Shown here one piece after another: positions 994 through 63,995 of a stretch of DNA of 64,000 nucleotides; the first letter of the stretch is position 1, and the number at the start of each line of letters is the position of its first letter. The position numbers and the translations under genes were made by a program. Where the stretch lies: NCBI RefSeq assembly GCF_001318295.1, contig NZ_CP012665.1, positions 248,001-312,000 of the forward strand. Direction: 5' to 3'. This DNA is from Candidatus Xiphinematobacter sp. Idaho Grape (lineage in GTDB: Bacteria; Verrucomicrobiota; Verrucomicrobiia; Chthoniobacterales; Xiphinematobacteraceae). The notes beneath the pieces were generated by a model, which worked only from the letters and a program-made list of their open reading frames with translations, had not been told where the DNA came from and did not search any database.

Positions 994-1257
994 ATGAATG
1001 GAGCACCTCTACAGCGCTTGGACTATCCCTCGGTAGGGCTCAATCCGGCGGAAGTTATCAATGCCGTTGGTCCACAGGCAAGGGGGTATTATTCAACTAT
1101 TATGCAAATGTTGCCTGCCCTGGATACTGCTAACGCAGGGGTGTTGGCAAAGTTCAACGTTTACTGGGCGATGTACAGCGCTACCATTCAGTTTATGTCT
1201 CAGTTCACTGTGGCAAACCAGGCCTTGTGGAAGGAATGCATCCAAAACATTCGTTGA
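994..1257 (+). CDS. sctF: T3SS needle subunit, SctF family
   Basis: Small helical protein of 87 residues, the usual needle-subunit size, predicted to polymerise into the extracellular needle of a type III secretion system. The second half has the needle pattern: NAGVLAKFNVYWAMYS at about 47-62 followed by an amphipathic helix ending in CIQNIR, comparable to the IIQNFR end of MxiH. ATG 994 is preferred; a GTG at 967 would add nine residues. No clear Shine-Dalgarno precedes it. The identity rests on length, the C-terminal pattern and the following SctG-like chaperone, not on strong overall similarity. It is the first gene of the T3SS cluster. Confidence 0.75.
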   Translation: MNGAPLQRLDYPSVGLNPAEVINAVGPQARGYYSTIMQMLPALDTANAGVLAKFNVYWAMYSATIQFMSQFTVANQALWKECIQNIR

Positions 1258-1610
1258 GTGGCTCCACAGTACTCACTCCAAAAGGCGAGCAGTGGGAGGT
1301 AGGTCCGATTCCGGCTGCGTTACGACGCTTGTTGATGGAAATTAGCCTGATGGGATTGGGTTGTGGGTTGCGCGTAGAAGCTTTTCAGCTCCTTCAGTTG
1401 CTTCGTGCCGTGGAGCCGGATGCGGCCTACCCGTTACTTGGATTATCTCAGTTTTATATGCTCAATAATGAAATGGAAAAAGCTAGAGAGCTTCTGTCGG
1501 AATTGGCGCTTCGCCAAGATCTTCTGGGCACGCCACTTCTAAAGATGGTACAGGCGCTCCAAACTTCAGGAGCCCAAATTTTGCGAACCTGTCCAGTAGA
1601 GACTGTTTAA
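1236..1610 (+). CDS. sctG: T3SS needle chaperone, SctG (YscG-like TPR) family
   Basis: Probable cytosolic TPR-like chaperone that keeps the needle subunit unpolymerised. The stretch LLMEISLMGLG followed by helical pairs (VEAFQLLQLLRAVEP, then AYPLLGLSQFYMLNN) matches the layout of YscG, whose N-terminus is LLAEIALIGTG. In Yersinia yscG also directly follows the needle gene. The start is uncertain: ATG 1236 overlaps sctF by 22 bp and has GGAAGGA immediately before it. A TTG at 1254 overlapping the sctF stop and an ATG at 1335 are alternatives; the last would give 91 residues, closer to the YscG core. A GTG at 1227 is also in frame. Confidence 0.65.
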   Translation: MHPKHSLSGSTVLTPKGEQWEVGPIPAALRRLLMEISLMGLGCGLRVEAFQLLQLLRAVEPDAAYPLLGLSQFYMLNNEMEKARELLSELALRQDLLGTPLLKMVQALQTSGAQILRTCPVETV

Positions 1611-1700
1611 CCGGCTAGGTTTGGCGAAGATACACACCTAGTGTAAGCTGGGTGGTTATTGAATCCGTGGTGCAAGCGGCCAGCCTCGTTCTAAAAAGAG

Positions 1701-1988
1701 ATGTCTTCTTCCATTTTTCACTCCGTACTTGCAACCGGAAGATGGGTTCTTAGGTCAGAGGGAATCCCTCCCCAGAAGCTGTCAGAAGCTGTCATCCGTC
1801 AGAAGTTGGTTAACGAGGGCAAACTTGGTGAGACTCAATCCCTAGAGGAATATTTTTCCAACATACCAGAAGGGGAGATAATCAGAGACCTCCAGCAGAG
1901 CATCCTTAGGCACTTGCAGGACCAGATACGAGTGGAAATACAAGAAAGGGAAAAGGAAATTGCAGAATTGAGGAAGGAGAGAAAATGA
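1701..1988 (+). CDS. uncharacterised small protein in the T3SS cluster
   Basis: 95-residue product, not recognised. The N-terminal half is mixed and contains LSEAVIRQKLVNEGKLGE. The C-terminal third is strongly charged and heptad-like (RVEIQEREKEIAELRKERK), probably a coiled coil. It lies between sctG and the putative inner-rod gene, the position of yscH in Yersinia, but no sequence resemblance to YopR/YscH could be argued. No signal peptide or membrane segment is visible. It could be a secreted substrate, a small chaperone or a structural adaptor. ATG 1701 follows AAAAAGAG, a weak ribosome-binding site. Confidence 0.55.
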   Translation: MSSSIFHSVLATGRWVLRSEGIPPQKLSEAVIRQKLVNEGKLGETQSLEEYFSNIPEGEIIRDLQQSILRHLQDQIRVEIQEREKEIAELRKERK

Positions 1989-2043
1989 AGTCGTTTCTAT
2001 TATTTGCTGTACAATCCAGGGTCCTACTCGTGTAGGAAGATGC

Positions 2044-2301
2044 ATGGCCATTTCCCTTTTGCCCATATCTGGGAAAGAAGCAGTGGGATCTATGTTCTTC
2101 CCAGAGGGCTATCAAAGAAGTATCGATCACGATGAGCAAAAGAGGGTTCTTGATCAGATTCTAGATGGAGAATTGACAGCGGAGAGGCTAGTTGAGATAG
2201 AGCAGCGGTGGGGACTGCATGCCTACCAATGGAGTCTCGTGTCTGCGCTTTCTGGAAAACTTGCAGCTGGGGTGCAAACCCTTTTTAGTAACCAGGTTTA
2301 G
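2044..2301 (+). CDS. sctI: putative T3SS inner-rod protein, SctI family
   Basis: 85-residue protein without signal peptide. The C-terminal 35 residues (a Q-x-W-SLVSALSGKLAAGVQTLF pattern ending in SNQV) look like the conserved amphipathic C-terminal helix of SctI/YscI/PrgJ rod proteins, which anchors at the base of the needle. The N-terminal part is unspecific. ATG 2044 follows AGGAAG by about four bases; another ATG four bases upstream is out of frame. The gene order sctF-sctG-x-sctI also fits the Yersinia ysc order. Position and C-terminal pattern are the evidence; a short coiled-coil chaperone is the main alternative. Confidence 0.5.
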   Translation: MAISLLPISGKEAVGSMFFPEGYQRSIDHDEQKRVLDQILDGELTAERLVEIEQRWGLHAYQWSLVSALSGKLAAGVQTLFSNQV

Positions 2302-2360
2302 ATTACACACGTCTCCCAAATCGGCCTGGGAAAATGCGATGGGAGTTAATTTAGGTAAAG

Positions 2361-3812
2361 ATGCCTAGGGTAAGCCCCGAAGGGTTTGAAGTAGGTGCAG
2401 GTCGGTTTGTCGTGAGAGTACTAAACGGCCCTCACGAGGGTGCTGAAATGGAAATTCCGAGGGATGGAGTTACCATCGGAAGTGGTGAAGAATGTGATTT
2501 GATTCTGTTTGACACTCAAGTAGTTCCCAGACACGCTCAGCTTACTCTCGGGGGGCAGAGGGTGGTTTTGTGCCCGCTGCAAGGGGCAGTCTGGTTGGAT
2601 ATGGTCTCTATCAAAGACAAGGTGGAGCTACTCGACGGTGCCAAGCAGATAATTACCGTAGGGAACACGCATTTGGCAGTAGGATCTCTCCTGCCAGGAG
2701 AGGGAGAGGCGTGGTGGCCTGCTGCTGGCTTAAGCGGTGGACTTCCTTCCGGGGAGGAGAGCGCTTCTAGCATGGTGGTCCAAACGGCCTTTCCAACAGA
2801 AAAGAGTAGGAGGCGTAACGCTTTGTTGTTCATTGCTGTGGTAGGTGCACTGCTCATTTTCACTACCTTGGAAATGTCGAAGCATCTAGGAAGAGAAAAA
2901 GTGGCAAGGGTGCAAGAAATGGACAGGCCTGTTTTTTTAGGAACAGTTACTCCTAAATCAATGCCGGGGCACTCAGGCTCAGTGGTTGTCCCTCACCTTC
3001 CCATTCCCAAGCCTATTGATCCAAGCTTGTTCCCCCTGGAGGCCAAAGTAGCGACTCAGCTCTCTAATGAAGGGGTGGTCTTTTCGTGGAAAATACAGGG
3101 CAGCAAGCCACAACTTAGGATATGGGCCAGGGGGGGGGCTGAAAGTGCTGTTGCACGCAGAATTATAAGTAGATTTTCACCCCCCTTGCATTATCACATT
3201 TTCGATCTTTCCCAAGTAGAGGCCTCAGCAGCTATGCTGGCGCAACTTTCCGGACTATCTCTCCGAGTACGCATAGAGCCAGAAGGGGTCGCCTTCTGGA
3301 GTGGTTATCTACAGCATGAAAAAATGTGGCACGACTTCTTCCTACATATCGTTCGTGAGTTACCCCTTATCCAAAACCACCGCTGTAAGATTGTCTTCGG
3401 AAACCAGTTAGTTAAGATTCTGCAGAAAGAGTTACGCCAACATGGACTGAAAGTGCAACCTGTTGCATCCACAGGCAGTGTGCTCCTGGTCGGAAGCTTA
3501 CCAAAAGAACAAAAGGAGGAATGGGACTCTTGGATGACCAAAGCATATGAAAGATATGCTTCACGGGTCTCTCTTATTGATAGAGTAAATAGTAGTATCG
3601 TGGCGGGAGTTGCCTCTAAGGATTTTTTTCCATCACGTATTGTAGGGGTTGCTGGCGCAGAAGGACCATGGGTTACTCTTGCGGATGGGTCAAAGTTCTT
3701 CCAAGGTGCTAAGCTGAAAGATGGACATGTTTTGGAAGAGATTACCTCTAGTATGCTTCTGTTGAGTGGTCCAGAAGGTGCATTAGAGCTCCATCTTTCT
3801 ACGTTGGACTAG
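2361..3812 (+). CDS. sctD: T3SS inner-membrane ring protein, SctD family with FHA domain
   Basis: Outer component of the inner-membrane ring of the T3SS basal body. Of 483 residues, about 14-110 form an FHA domain (LNGPHEGAEMEIPRDG, then VTIGSGEECDLILFDTQVVPRHAQ). A short linker and one transmembrane helix at about 153-171 (NALLFIAVVGALLIFTTLE) follow, and then a periplasmic part of about 300 residues compatible with BON-like ring-building modules. This cytosolic FHA, single TM, periplasmic layout is that of YscD/CdsD. A run of nine G (3130-3138) falls near codon 257, where slippage would truncate the periplasmic region. ATG 2361 follows a weak AGG box. Confidence 0.8.
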   Translation: MPRVSPEGFEVGAGRFVVRVLNGPHEGAEMEIPRDGVTIGSGEECDLILFDTQVVPRHAQLTLGGQRVVLCPLQGAVWLDMVSIKDKVELLDGAKQIITVGNTHLAVGSLLPGEGEAWWPAAGLSGGLPSGEESASSMVVQTAFPTEKSRRRNALLFIAVVGALLIFTTLEMSKHLGREKVARVQEMDRPVFLGTVTPKSMPGHSGSVVVPHLPIPKPIDPSLFPLEAKVATQLSNEGVVFSWKIQGSKPQLRIWARGGAESAVARRIISRFSPPLHYHIFDLSQVEASAAMLAQLSGLSLRVRIEPEGVAFWSGYLQHEKMWHDFFLHIVRELPLIQNHRCKIVFGNQLVKILQKELRQHGLKVQPVASTGSVLLVGSLPKEQKEEWDSWMTKAYERYASRVSLIDRVNSSIVAGVASKDFFPSRIVGVAGAEGPWVTLADGSKFFQGAKLKDGHVLEEITSSMLLLSGPEGALELHLSTLD

Positions 3813-3863
3813 GATTATTTATGCCGTGGTGCCTTGTTGTCTCCCGTAGAGGATGGAACTAGA

Positions 3864-4097
3864 ATGGAATCTACCTCCGAGCCAGTTTTTATCTTTTTTA
3901 CAGAACTTGCCATCCGTATTCATGGGGATCGCACAGATTCTGAGCGCAAGAGGGTGATTCATTTGCTAGAGCGTTGGCGTCGGGAACAGGCTGAGGAGGC
4001 TACGTCCAGTCTATCCCAGAGCCGACCCATAGTGCAGGCGATCGATTTAGCTATAGAAATTACCAGGAATGCCTTCATCCCACCCTGGGAACGTTGA
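3864..4097 (+). CDS. uncharacterised small helical protein in the T3SS cluster
   Basis: 77-residue product from ATG 3864 (a TTG at 3834 is in frame), preceded by GAGGA. Apparently all helical: FIFFTELAIRIHGDRTDSE, then RKRVIHLLERWRREQAEEA, then IVQAIDLAIEITRNAF. No signal peptide. Its size, two-helix pattern and position next to sctD allow the hypothesis that it is the SctE-type co-chaperone of SctG. Chlamydiae also carry a small gene next to the FHA-type sctD. The sequence alone does not prove this, and no family is recognised with confidence. Confidence 0.5.
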   Translation: MESTSEPVFIFFTELAIRIHGDRTDSERKRVIHLLERWRREQAEEATSSLSQSRPIVQAIDLAIEITRNAFIPPWER

Positions 4098-4333
4098 CGA
4101 GTAAGGTAGCAATTAGAGCACAGTAGCAAGTTTGCATACTTTTATTCCCTCATTCCCCATCAGGGGAGTGTGCAGCGCTCGTATGGTCTGCAGGTTGTTT
4201 TGCATGTTGAAAAAGAACTGCACTTGCCAATTTTCCTGCAGCCGGTGCATTCGGTGCATTGGTAGATTCTGATACATCGCTTGTCAATAAGCGTGCAAGC
4301 TCTGACATTGTCTGACATTGGAATATACAAGAA

Positions 4334-4801
4334 GTGACGCATAGCCTCACATATGGGACAGTGGGTGCTGTGAACATCGTATCCTCTCAAAGTGGAGACT
4401 TCAGACTTCTTGCGTTAGTACTCGAGATACTCGGAGTCAAGGAACTGGATAGAAGTGTACCCCTCCCGGTTGATCTCATAGTAGATGGACACTTACCGGT
4501 CCAGGTGTGCCGACACAAGCGCCAATGGTTTGTTAGCGGGACAATCGCTACGGAGATCTCTAGCTGTGAGGGCAAAGCACTCTTTCACCTTGTAAACGAG
4601 GCTTCCAAGACATGGAACAGCCTAGTAGGTATTATGTCCTATGAAAAGGATAAAGATATGTTAGTTCTATGGACGCAGGTGTCATGCCTTGCGCACCGGA
4701 AGGACTTGGAATTAAGCATTAGTCTGTTTTTAAAAGACCTTAAATTTTGGCGTGCAGAGGCTGATGGAGCTGGTTGCACAGGGAGAGATAGTTTTCTGTG
4801 A
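4334..4801 (+). CDS. T3SS effector/substrate chaperone, CesT/SycE-like
   Basis: Up to 155 residues with the class I T3SS chaperone pattern: an N-terminal helix (FRLLALVLEILGVKELD), a strand pair around a dynamically charged core (LIVDGHLPVQVCRHKRQWF), then LVLWTQVSCLAH and a final helix ELSISLFLKDLKFWRAE. Such proteins dimerise and hold secretion substrates for export. No ATG precedes the conserved part; GTG 4334, 4361 and 4370 are the possible starts, all without a good ribosome-binding site. The 3' end overlaps sctC by 38 bp, implying co-translation. No obvious cognate effector is adjacent. Confidence 0.65.
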   Translation: MTHSLTYGTVGAVNIVSSQSGDFRLLALVLEILGVKELDRSVPLPVDLIVDGHLPVQVCRHKRQWFVSGTIATEISSCEGKALFHLVNEASKTWNSLVGIMSYEKDKDMLVLWTQVSCLAHRKDLELSISLFLKDLKFWRAEADGAGCTGRDSFL

Positions 4802-6692
4802 GGAGACTTTGACTCTATTACGTTCACTGTTTAGATCCGCTCTGGTCTTAGCGAGCGCTGCGGGTACTGGAACGCCTACTACTTGGTCGGCATCCTCCTC
4901 CAGGTCCACTGGATCGGCACCGGCAGCCGAGATTCAGTCGTCTTCCGAATCTAACCCACGGAACAGTAATAGTGGTGTTCACTGGCTATCAGGCTCCATC
5001 AACATTTTAGCTGATCAAAGTGCCATAGAGGATATCCTGCGGGAATTTGGGGACCAAACAAATCTCAGAATTGTCCTTAGCCCAGCCATTCATGGAAAAG
5101 TCAGCGGGAAGTTTATGGGCTTAGGACCGAAACAATTCCTGCAGCAAATCTGCCGTGCATACGGATTAGATTGGCTCTACTATAACAAGCAGATCTACTT
5201 CTATTCCAACACGGAGAGCAAAACAGCAGTATGCACTCTAAGATATTTGCCCGTTGTACATGCAATAAGGACAGTAGAACAGATCGAGATGCTCTCCTTG
5301 GGAGCCTCTATCCACCCTATCCCTAACACTCCTATGGTAGTTCTAAATGGCCCTCCAAAATATATAGAAATTGCCCAAGCGGTACTCCGCACGTTGGAGG
5401 CGCAGAACGCTCATAGACAGACAAATGAATTGGTGATCCAAGTATTCCCTCTTAACTATGCCTGGGCTTATGATGTAGAGCTTTCTAACGGTGTACGTGT
5501 TGAAGGAGTCGCTACTACTCTCTCCAAACTTATCTTAGGAGGTTCGCACTATGGGCATACAACGACAGGAGAAAAATTTCCAGTTTCTTTAGGAACTCTT
5601 GGGCATGTTGCCAATCCAGTCCTTGGTGTTAACGATGAATGGCCAAGACAACGGCGGGTGGCAGCCCCCCGTGCCCTCTTCTCTCTTGGAGGAGGGCAGG
5701 AGGGCGCCAAAAATGCTCCTATTATCCCTTCAGCTAAAAGCCCAGCACCAAATGATGTCTACAATCCAGCCTCTTCCCCCGACAGTAGCCCTTCCATTGC
5801 GGCAAGTGTACGTGCCAATGCTATTGTCATTCGAGATGTTCGGGAGAACATGCCGTTTTATAAAGCAGCCATTGCCAAATTGGATGTTCCTATACGGGTA
5901 ATTGAAATTTCAGCTGCTATTGTAGACGTGGACATCCATGCCTCTCGGGCCTTAGGGTTAAGTGGTATTAACGCAAGCATAGGGGGAGTCACTGGGGCAG
6001 CAAGTAGCACAACAGGAGAGCCTATTAGACATAGCGGTAATTTGAATATAAAAGGCGTCTTCGGCACTAGCGTTGTTACTGCGGCGCTGAACTTTCTAGA
6101 AAGAAACAAGAAGGCAAAAATTTTGTCGCGCCCTACTATAGTTACGCTGGATAACTTTGGCGCCTCCATCGGAAGTGCGGACACATTTTACCAATCCGTA
6201 CAGGGCAACTACGTTAGTAACATGTTTAATGTGAGTGCCGACCTAAGGCTAGAAGTGGTTCCACACATAATGATGCACAAAAAACAGCCGCAAATTTATA
6301 TGCAAGTCAAAGTAGAAGATGGCTCCTTCGACTCAAAACAAAAGGCAGCCTCCTTGCCCATGGTGCACCGCTCCCAGCTTGTTACGCAGTCTATCGTCCG
6401 CAAGGATCAAAGCCTTCTCATCGGAGGGTTGTACCGCAAGGTAGATGTACGGGAGCGCAGCGGATATCCTTGGCTGAATCAAGTTCCCATTCTAAGCTTT
6501 TTCTTCTCCTCAAATACTCGTAGAAACCTGGTAGTAGAGCGATTGTTTCTTATTACACCGAGGATCGTCGATATTAACTCCAGGAGTTTGAGAGATTACA
6601 GCCAATACTTTCATCCTCATCCCGCCACGGAGAGTACGCGGAGGCTCTCTACAAGAGCCCCTCGAAAATGCAACACCGTCTACGTACGCTAG
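4764..6692 (+). CDS. sctC: T3SS outer-membrane secretin, SctC family
   Basis: Outer-membrane ring through which the needle passes. 642 residues from ATG 4764. The N-terminal 35 residues hold a weak signal-like stretch (TLLRSLFRSALVLASAA), followed by a Ser/Thr-rich linker, N0/N1-type ring modules (ILREFGDQTNLRIVLSP; the AYGLDWLYYNKQIYFYS strand pair; ILNGPP-like VVLNGPPKYIEIAQAVL) and a C-terminal secretin domain. The latter contains AALNFLERNKKAKILSRP, LLIGGLYRK at about 552 and WLNQVPILSFFFSS, the hallmark end of secretins. A long Pro/Ser-rich insert lies at about 300-340. It is the best-supported T3SS gene here. Confidence 0.88.
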   Translation: MELVAQGEIVFCEETLTLLRSLFRSALVLASAAGTGTPTTWSASSSRSTGSAPAAEIQSSSESNPRNSNSGVHWLSGSINILADQSAIEDILREFGDQTNLRIVLSPAIHGKVSGKFMGLGPKQFLQQICRAYGLDWLYYNKQIYFYSNTESKTAVCTLRYLPVVHAIRTVEQIEMLSLGASIHPIPNTPMVVLNGPPKYIEIAQAVLRTLEAQNAHRQTNELVIQVFPLNYAWAYDVELSNGVRVEGVATTLSKLILGGSHYGHTTTGEKFPVSLGTLGHVANPVLGVNDEWPRQRRVAAPRALFSLGGGQEGAKNAPIIPSAKSPAPNDVYNPASSPDSSPSIAASVRANAIVIRDVRENMPFYKAAIAKLDVPIRVIEISAAIVDVDIHASRALGLSGINASIGGVTGAASSTTGEPIRHSGNLNIKGVFGTSVVTAALNFLERNKKAKILSRPTIVTLDNFGASIGSADTFYQSVQGNYVSNMFNVSADLRLEVVPHIMMHKKQPQIYMQVKVEDGSFDSKQKAASLPMVHRSQLVTQSIVRKDQSLLIGGLYRKVDVRERSGYPWLNQVPILSFFFSSNTRRNLVVERLFLITPRIVDINSRSLRDYSQYFHPHPATESTRRLSTRAPRKCNTVYVR

Positions 6693-62624: not shown

Positions 62625-63995
62625 CTAAGGCGCTGGGACTTTTTTGCGCAAGTAACTTGGCAAGATGGAGAGTTGTACACGGTATTTCGCAACAATACGG
62701 CGTGTGGCCAGAAGTCCCCTTCCTCTCAAGAGGGCGACTATCTCTTGATCGCGGAAGGGATTGTATCTATCTTCCCCAGCAACTATTCTTAGGATCTCTT
62801 CACGCACACTTTCACTACTAGTGAAACCACCACTCTTGGTCCGATATCCGGAAGTAAAAAAACGTCTCATTGCAAGGACTCCATAGGGGGTATCCATATA
62901 CTTTCCGGAAACTGCTCGACTAACGGTAGTCTCGTGAACTCCTATTGCTTTGGCTATTTCCCCCATGGTCATGGGATATAAGCCAGTAAAACCTTCCTCA
63001 AAAAATTTCTGTTGACGGATAACAATCTGCTCGGCAGCACCTAGGATAGTTTGTTGCCTCTTTTGGATACTGCGAATAAGGAAGAGGCCAGCTCGGATTT
63101 TCTTCTGGATGTATTCTCGCACTTCTCTGTTACTTCCCTCTCGTGAGAGTAGTTCTCTGTAGAGAGAATTAATTCGTAGACGTGGCAAACCTGCGTTGTT
63201 GAGAATGGGGTGGTACTCTCCATCTCTCCCCTTCCGTACAGTAACTTCTGCAGTTACGAAAGGTTCAACGGAGTCTTCTAATATCCTCCCTGGCCTAGGC
63301 TCTAGCTGGGCAATGTGATTAGCTGCCCGACACACTTGTGCAAGAGGGACTTGGAGTACCCTAGCGATTTCTTTGAATCTGCGATGTGCCAGTTGGTTTA
63401 GGCACAACTTGACGATTCTACTTTCCAAGTGGGTTGCTTTCCCCTGGCGTCTGAGTTGTAGGAGAAGACACTCCTGCAAATTGCGCGCCGCTATTCCAGC
63501 CGGATCTAGACTCTGAACTTGGCGTAACACGGCGTCCACATCCTCTGGACGTGCCTTTGCCAAGCTGGCGATTTCCTCAACGGAAGCTTCTAAATATCCT
63601 GCCTCGTTTAGACTGCCTATGATTAGTAGTGCAATACTGATGTCTTCTGCTTTTGTCTCCATTAATACAACCTCTTTCCTCAAAGAGCTCTGTAGTGTAC
63701 TAGCCTCTATTAGAGAGTTAATCAAATGATGATGCTGCTCTGCAGCTAGAGAAGAAAAGTTGGATTGTACAAAATAGGTATCCCATTCCTCTTGGAGCGA
63801 AAAAGGTTCCCCTCCTAGCAGAGAAAAATCCCTTGAGGAGGTCACCTCTTCCAGAGTGGGGTTCACCCTCATTTCATTTCCTACCAGATGTTTAAGTTCA
63901 CTAAGCGATGCCTGTAAGATCTGGAGGCTCCGTTGCATGAGAGGAGACGGAGCCTGTTGCACAGAAAGGGCATGTGTTTGTTCTATTCCAGGCAT
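62625..63995 (-). CDS. rpoN: RNA polymerase sigma-54 factor RpoN
   Basis: 456 residues. N-terminal region I with SPLMQRSLQILQASLSELKHL, core-binding region (LDPAGIAARNLQECLLLQL), helix-turn-helix around MGEIAKAIGVHETTVSRAVSGKY, and the C-terminal RpoN box TRRIVAKYR. Directs transcription from -24/-12 promoters with an AAA+ activator. ATG 63995 is close to the window end; a further start beyond is possible. Whether it drives the T3SS genes is unknown; no clear -24/-12 site was found in front of sctF. Confidence 0.95.
   Translation of the reverse strand: MPGIEQTHALSVQQAPSPLMQRSLQILQASLSELKHLVGNEMRVNPTLEEVTSSRDFSLLGGEPFSLQEEWDTYFVQSNFSSLAAEQHHHLINSLIEASTLQSSLRKEVVLMETKAEDISIALLIIGSLNEAGYLEASVEEIASLAKARPEDVDAVLRQVQSLDPAGIAARNLQECLLLQLRRQGKATHLESRIVKLCLNQLAHRRFKEIARVLQVPLAQVCRAANHIAQLEPRPGRILEDSVEPFVTAEVTVRKGRDGEYHPILNNAGLPRLRINSLYRELLSREGSNREVREYIQKKIRAGLFLIRSIQKRQQTILGAAEQIVIRQQKFFEEGFTGLYPMTMGEIAKAIGVHETTVSRAVSGKYMDTPYGVLAMRRFFTSGYRTKSGGFTSSESVREEILRIVAGEDRYNPFRDQEIVALLRGRGLLATRRIVAKYRVQLSILPSYLRKKVPAP

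Follow-up and report, generated by a model that had tools for sequence, protein, structure and literature searches.

Candidatus Xiphinematobacter sp. Idaho Grape is a member of the Verrucomicrobia that lives as an endosymbiont in the dagger nematode Xiphinema americanum (PMC4607532). Its reduced genome (CP012665) encodes a type III secretion system (T3SS) from which the translocon and the SctX/SctY pair are missing. The window analysed here is a stretch of 64,000 nucleotides, positions 248001-312000 of the single 915,884-bp contig (genome G000), in which eight open reading frames (ORFs), all on the plus strand, extend from trmD to position 6692. The genome distributes a non-flagellar T3SS of verrucomicrobial type over three loci, of which this cluster is one. 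The full core (SctC, D, F, G, I, J, K, L, N, O, P, Q, R, S, T, U and V) is intact, with SctF, I, O and P assigned by position and motif, and so is the gatekeeper set of SctW, TyeA, SycN and a YscB-like chaperone. Neither complete reduced genome of the genus has the translocon cassette or sctX-sctY any longer. Judged from gene content, the balance tilts towards a working needle complex and gatekeeper that were retained after the injection pore was lost and that would be used for export, not for canonical injection. The T3SS itself is of a known kind, in which two tested features fail (the translocon and SctX/SctY); what is new is the retention of a translocon-less injectisome in a nutritional endosymbiont.

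Absence of the translocon and of SctX/SctY

Comparisons were made within the genus. G002 is an independent second complete genome (0.917 Mb) that forms with G000 a reduced pair of ~0.916 Mb, and G003 (2.5 Mb, 98% complete) and G001 (1.9 Mb, 73% complete) are larger relatives placed in the same genus. In G003, 5.8 kb between the YscE-like ORF and the chaperone code for a 502-amino-acid (aa) protein, SycD/LcrH (TIGR02552, 107.1 bits; cut-off 104.8), a 660-aa SseC-family translocator (39 bits; cut-off 30.2) and a 482-aa protein. At the same place G001 has 668-, 827- and 482-aa proteins distantly similar to those of the G003 cassette. Both larger relatives also carry SctX- and SctY-like genes between sycN and sctV, which score below cut-off (SctY 59.9 bits, cut-off 70; SctX 21, cut-off 30) and have the right place, size and order.

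The translocon (SctE/SctB), present in G001 and G003, was not found in G000 or G002, and the Ysc-family markers SctX and SctY have the same distribution. Absences in G000 are based on genome-wide profile and protein searches, plus selected DNA stretches. At the first site the gap is about 500 bp in G002 (Table 1 for G000); the second, between sycN and sctV, is about 520-650 bp in the two genomes and holds no coding-strand ORF longer than 62 aa in either. Gap DNA of G000 and G002 is 53-54% identical over aligned bases at both sites, the flanking proteins being 65-85% identical, and no remains of translocon or sctX/sctY sequence were detectable in the gaps. Genome-wide, the SseC profile, the only search to cover the 660-aa protein, matched neither G000 nor G002, even with E relaxed to 0.1, and did match G001 and G003. 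A tblastn search with a 914-aa query (the G003 482-aa protein, SycD, SctY and SctX) returned nothing at E<=1 in G000/G002, the G003 502-aa protein not having been searched genome-wide; the query detects the SctX and SctY of G001 at 50% and 72% identity. No true SycD was over cut-off in G000 or G002, where the weak SycD-profile matches are other TPR proteins, an absence that is weak alone because none is over cut-off in the 73%-complete G001 either.

By parsimony we infer loss rather than gain, since both larger relatives have the cassette and sctX/sctY at corresponding sites and other verrucomicrobial systems have ORFs of X/Y size where sctX/sctY would stand. SctX/SctY-like genes of verrucomicrobial T3SS lie at L088 8458-9157 and L094 12732-13487 and at the same place in L095, L096, L099 and L110; in the outgroup loci they are recognised by place and size only. 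SctX/SctY have been said to exist in the Ysc family only (PMC5864894), which contrasts with the SctX/SctY-like genes of verrucomicrobial T3SS.

The main competing explanation is that the injectisome is canonical and continues to deliver effectors into nematode cells, its translocators having been relocated or having diverged beyond recognition. Translocators are known to diverge quickly, many G000 genes are hypothetical proteins without annotation (PMC4607532), and the SctW-TyeA gatekeeper, kept here with SycN and the YscB-like chaperone, normally orders translocators before effectors. However, the two larger relatives have the cassette at one and the same site and the two reduced genomes cleanly lack it, the SseC and tblastn searches are negative, no SycD-type chaperone is over cut-off and sctX-sctY have also been lost. 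We therefore regard continued injection of this kind as rather unlikely.

The retained apparatus

An eight-gene T3SS cluster had been proposed for this interval by the initial annotation, and the proposal holds: place and strand are correct, and all eight ORFs are kept in identical order in G002, at 60-89% identity. The T3SS call and the gene assignments stand as well, SctC and SctD by curated cut-offs and the others by position, motif and homologues. Profile searches, which the annotation had offered as a check, confirmed the families in part, with SctC and SctD exceeding T3SS cut-offs, SctG exceeding the cut-off for TPR_19, and SctF, SctI and the chaperone giving no significant match. SctC scored 319 bits with TIGR02516 (cut-off 238) against 131 with PilQ (cut-off 284) and 87 with GspD (cut-off 351), and SctD has Yop-YscD_cpl, FHA and BON-like domains above cut-offs.

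SctF, SctI, the YscE-like ORF and the chaperone lack a significant family match in G000; their names rest on position, C-terminal motifs and the homologues that relatives carry. SctF, with no Pfam/NCBIfam match, is 89% identical between G000 and G002, with a ratio of nonsynonymous to synonymous substitution rates (dN/dS) of 0.06, and its C-terminal K...N-x-R is common to the SctF-position ORFs of other verrucomicrobial systems. Its AlphaFold model is a helical hairpin of moderate confidence (predicted local distance difference test score 70); Foldseek searches with this model returned chance-level helical hairpins only, a solved needle standing at rank 29 (E 3.3). The C-terminus of SctI aligns with the SctI-position ORFs of G001, G003 and Lentisphaeria-type systems. 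For the candidate needle and inner rod, position, motif, conservation and the hairpin model thus far point the same way. SctG has TPR_19 above cut-off and a weak HrpB1_HrpK match (0.07), and is homologous to the SctG-position ORFs of G001, G002, G003 and other Verrucomicrobiota. The CesT match of the YscB-like chaperone is weak in G000 (E 0.05) and reaches E 3e-4 in the 51% identical G003 homologue; other Verrucomicrobiota also have an ORF of this size in front of sctC.

The initial annotation had called the cluster partial, with the ATPase, the export gate and SctJ outside the window. This is true of the window and not of the genome, where the remaining core genes are encoded elsewhere: sctN, V, R, S, T, U and J were all found, and sctW-tyeA-sycN-sctV lies just 0.1-4.5 kb beyond the window end (Table 1). 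SctC, J, N, V and T are over curated cut-offs and SctR over the Pfam cut-off; for SctS, SctU and SctQ the best match is a T3SS model, with scores slightly below its cut-off, and SctP and SctO were named by position. The non-flagellar T3SS core set of SctC, J, N, Q, R, S, T, U and V is thus all present in G000. SctN retains its Walker A motif, and SctU (genome 778414-779481) retains N-P-x-H, as NPVH in G000 and G002 and as NPTH in G003.

Table 1. T3SS features of G000; positions are those of the window unless marked as genome positions.
Feature	Position	Strand	Remarks
SctF, candidate needle subunit	994..1257	+	87 aa from ATG 994; first gene after trmD in 4/4 genus genomes
SctG-like TPR needle chaperone	1227..1610	+	true start probably later, e.g. 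1299
95-aa ORF, no assigned family	1701..1988	+	sequence conservation in G002 only
SctI, candidate inner rod	2044..2301	+	C-terminus WSLVSALSGKLAAGVQTLFSNQV; 72% identical in G002
SctD inner-membrane ring (FHA-transmembrane-BON)	2361..3812	+	TIGR02500 97.6 bits, cut-off 86
Small helical ORF, candidate YscE-like needle co-chaperone	3834..4097	+	directly 3' of sctD
Site of missing translocon cassette	4098..4333	.	236 bp
CesT-fold chaperone, YscB-like	4334..4801	+	yscB-yscC order
SctC outer-membrane secretin	4752..6692	+	start may be later
SctW (gatekeeper)	genome 312107		
TyeA	genome 312866		
SycN-like chaperone	genome 313521		
SctV	genome 314398-316512		TIGR01399 832 bits, cut-off 692; FlhA model below cut-off
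SctU, T, S, R, Q, P, O, N, L, K, J	genome 778.4-787.4 kb	-	470 kb away

Two further ORFs of the cluster are less readily placed. The small ORF downstream of sctD is kept in G001, G002 and G003 at the sctD-yscE position, and its position makes it a candidate for a YscE-like function; in G003 it is tandemly duplicated (L087 2483-2725 and 2911-3153). The ORF at 1701 is 60% identical in G002, matches no family among Pfam/NCBIfam-type profiles, and is the most relaxed of the set (dN/dS 0.42). The ORFs in the same sctG-sctI interval of G001 and G003 (185 aa and 97+66 aa) are unrelated to it by sequence. It is a candidate secreted or substrate-like protein.

Two genes beside the T3SS loci were also considered as regulators. 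A 121-aa ORF just upstream of sctJ (genome 787496-787861; L016 17496-17861, minus strand), conserved at this position in each of the four genomes of the genus, has no family match. Its model has a b-a-b-a-b-a fold, with stressosome STAS proteins among the better TM matches, none of them significant, and the ORF is possibly a partner-switching regulator of the T3SS. The rpoN gene and sctW are divergent in both reduced genomes, with 82 bp between them, but G003 has no rpoN at that place; the positions concerned are 62625-63995 of the window (minus strand) and genome 859943, and one sigma-54 activator is kept genome-wide. No good -24/-12 sites were found at the T3SS clusters, so that sigma-54 control of the T3SS is unsupported despite rpoN beside sctW.

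Selection on the retained genes

Ratios of dN/dS were calculated from G000 and G002 and are rough, dS being about 0.5-1.3 (NG86) and near saturation. They ran from SctR (0.050) and SctF (0.059) through SctN (0.066), SctT (0.081), SctJ (0.095), SctV (0.097), SctW (0.107) and SctC (0.145), with SctO (0.27), SctP (0.34) and the 1701 ORF at the upper end. Nearly all T3SS genes fell within 0.05-0.27, close to the values of neighbouring genes; the medians were 0.162 (23 T3SS genes) and 0.108 (15 neighbours), with p=0.06. YN00 gave lower dS and higher ratios, mostly <0.4. By these estimates the retained apparatus is under purifying selection, which, as far as such ratios can be read, says that the machine is used. 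The initial annotation had suggested that the system still serves the host interaction. Purifying selection agrees with this; the form of that interaction is another matter, as canonical injection is doubtful because the translocon and SctX/SctY are missing.

If function had ended with the loss of the translocon and SctX/SctY, the remaining genes would be a decaying relic not yet eroded. Several observations fit such a relic: parts essential in the Ysc family are missing, SctP and the 1701 ORF are relaxed, the SctU motif has gone from NPTH to NPVH, and the T3SS median is slightly above that of the neighbours. Yet about 20 genes at three loci are open in both genomes at this divergence and at these low ratios, whereas at the loss sites the two genomes share only 53-54% of aligned bases, and NPVH also occurs in another row, the flagellar-type L178. 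We consider a relic improbable.

Among the T3SS genes measured SctF ranks second in constraint, as might be expected of a needle-bearing surface structure that exports its own subunits only and that the symbiont uses for attachment or recognition on its way from one nematode tissue to another. A role of this kind has also been suggested for the basal bodies of Buchnera (PMC8109811). That the gatekeeper complex is kept together with its two chaperones, however, suggests control of late export beyond needle assembly, and such a structure is very improbable as the whole function.

Affiliation and origin

In the SctV tree, whose midpoint root is for display only and in which coded genomes take their family names from adjoining named rows, the genus falls within a clade of Verrucomicrobiaceae, Opitutaceae, Puniceicoccales and a lake verrucomicrobial metagenome-assembled genome (Shimodaira-Hasegawa-like approximate likelihood ratio test 97; 100 with the lake genome). 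This clade stands beside Lentisphaeria/Kiritimatiellae-type systems and away from Chlamydiae. The SctC tree agrees, SctC grouping with T3SS secretins and not with the type II or type IV pilus secretins that the initial annotation had named as the contrary outcome; two non-T3SS secretins are on long branches. Compared with chlamydial and verrucomicrobial homologues, as it had proposed for SctC and SctN, SctC and SctV group with the T3SS of Verrucomicrobiota, and SctV lies outside the chlamydial clade. A chlamydial origin, considered for the resemblance in scattered loci, is unsupported by the SctV tree.

SctV is above cut-off in 28 of 388 genomes of the phylum, and the other sampled members of the order have none, while each of the four genomes of the genus has a match. 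The reduced symbiont probably inherited the T3SS from a larger-genome ancestor within the genus. G000 has a single SctV/FlhA, a single SctR/FliP and a single SctJ/FliF gene genome-wide, and flagellar-type models fail (FlhA 609 bits, cut-off 772, against 832 for SctV). A flagellar export apparatus, a type II secretion system or a type IV pilus secretin, to all of which the T3SS components are homologous, is refuted and can be set aside, because SctV, SctN, SctJ, SctC and SctD pass T3SS cut-offs, the FlhA, FliI, FliF, PilQ and GspD models fail, and the SctV and SctC trees agree.

Proposed export in place of injection

We favour a system that exports and no longer injects. With its translocon lost, the machine would no longer perforate host membranes, and in the reduced lineage the export gate would have been rewired to work without SctX/SctY. 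The needle complex would then export the needle subunit, SctW and other late substrates across the two membranes of the symbiont into the surrounding host-derived space or, alternatively, display the needle there, with export still controlled by the SctW-TyeA-SycN-YscB-like gatekeeper. A symbiont already inside host cells may face no further membrane except that of a vacuole. A translocon is needed for delivery, not for secretion (PMC3459982).

Several points weigh against this proposal. SctX:SctY of the Ysc family binds SctV, and the system does not function without it (PMC9163089; PMC5864894); other T3SS families manage without. Yersinia cannot secrete at all if SctX or SctY is missing (PMC9163089, PMC5864894), so that their loss from a system that formerly relied on them might leave it unable to secrete. 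Translocators evolve fast and could be present unrecognised (PMC3459982); the SseC profile has limited sensitivity, having given no more than a weak match in the T3SS-bearing control G235. The secreted substrates of the system are putative.

The initial annotation's description of the genome as reduced and nutrient-providing fits its size and the amino-acid genes encoded in the window (aspartate kinase, homoserine dehydrogenase and ketol-acid reductoisomerase). The two published genome studies of Xiphinematobacter treat nutrition only. The words type III, secretion, T3SS and effector are absent from the main text of both, although single genes may be annotated in the database record, and none of the literature searched relevantly links the genus to a T3SS. 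This mutualist has lost the greater part of its genome and yet bears the cost of a secretion machine of 20 genes; what it has dropped is precisely the set of parts needed for entry into host cells. With a before/after pair inside one genus, the role of type III machines in obligate symbionts becomes testable, and the genus is a natural experiment on SctX/SctY. The host nematode is a virus-vectoring crop pest, which gives its dependence on the symbiont practical interest. The chances are about even that an injectisome without translocon and SctX/SctY has been recast as an export or surface organelle of a nutritional endosymbiont, with SctX/SctY-independent secretion in a lineage that once had both.

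Comparison with known systems

The gene blocks found here, SctD-F-G-I, SctJ-K-L-N-O-P-Q-R-S-T-U and SctW-TyeA-SycN-(X-Y)-SctV, are those of other verrucomicrobial T3SS, which elsewhere form one compact locus; here they are divided among three loci, and sctX/sctY and the translocon are missing. V. spinosum is reported to use its T3SS against Drosophila and C. elegans (PMC3681970). Chlamydial T3SS share the scattered loci, the FHA-type SctD and an intracellular host, but SctV of the genus is outside their clade. TyeA, SycN, YscK and a YscB-like chaperone before the secretin recall the Ysc-Yop system of Yersinia, and relatives of G000 carry SctX/SctY. In contrast, SctX and SctY, which define the Ysc family and are essential to it, are absent from G000, as is a translocon. 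The Myxo non-flagellar T3SS of Myxococcales likewise has no translocon and has been proposed to move proteins without injection (PMC3459982), but it also lacks the secretin and needle that G000 has. The closest functional parallel would be the headless flagella of Buchnera. That nutritional endosymbiont keeps export-competent flagellar basal bodies without a filament, its type III export machinery and basal body being encoded in three clusters and the outermost functional part lost (PMC8109811). The Buchnera structure is flagellar, whereas in Xiphinematobacter it is an injectisome that has kept needle and gatekeeper and lost its translocon.

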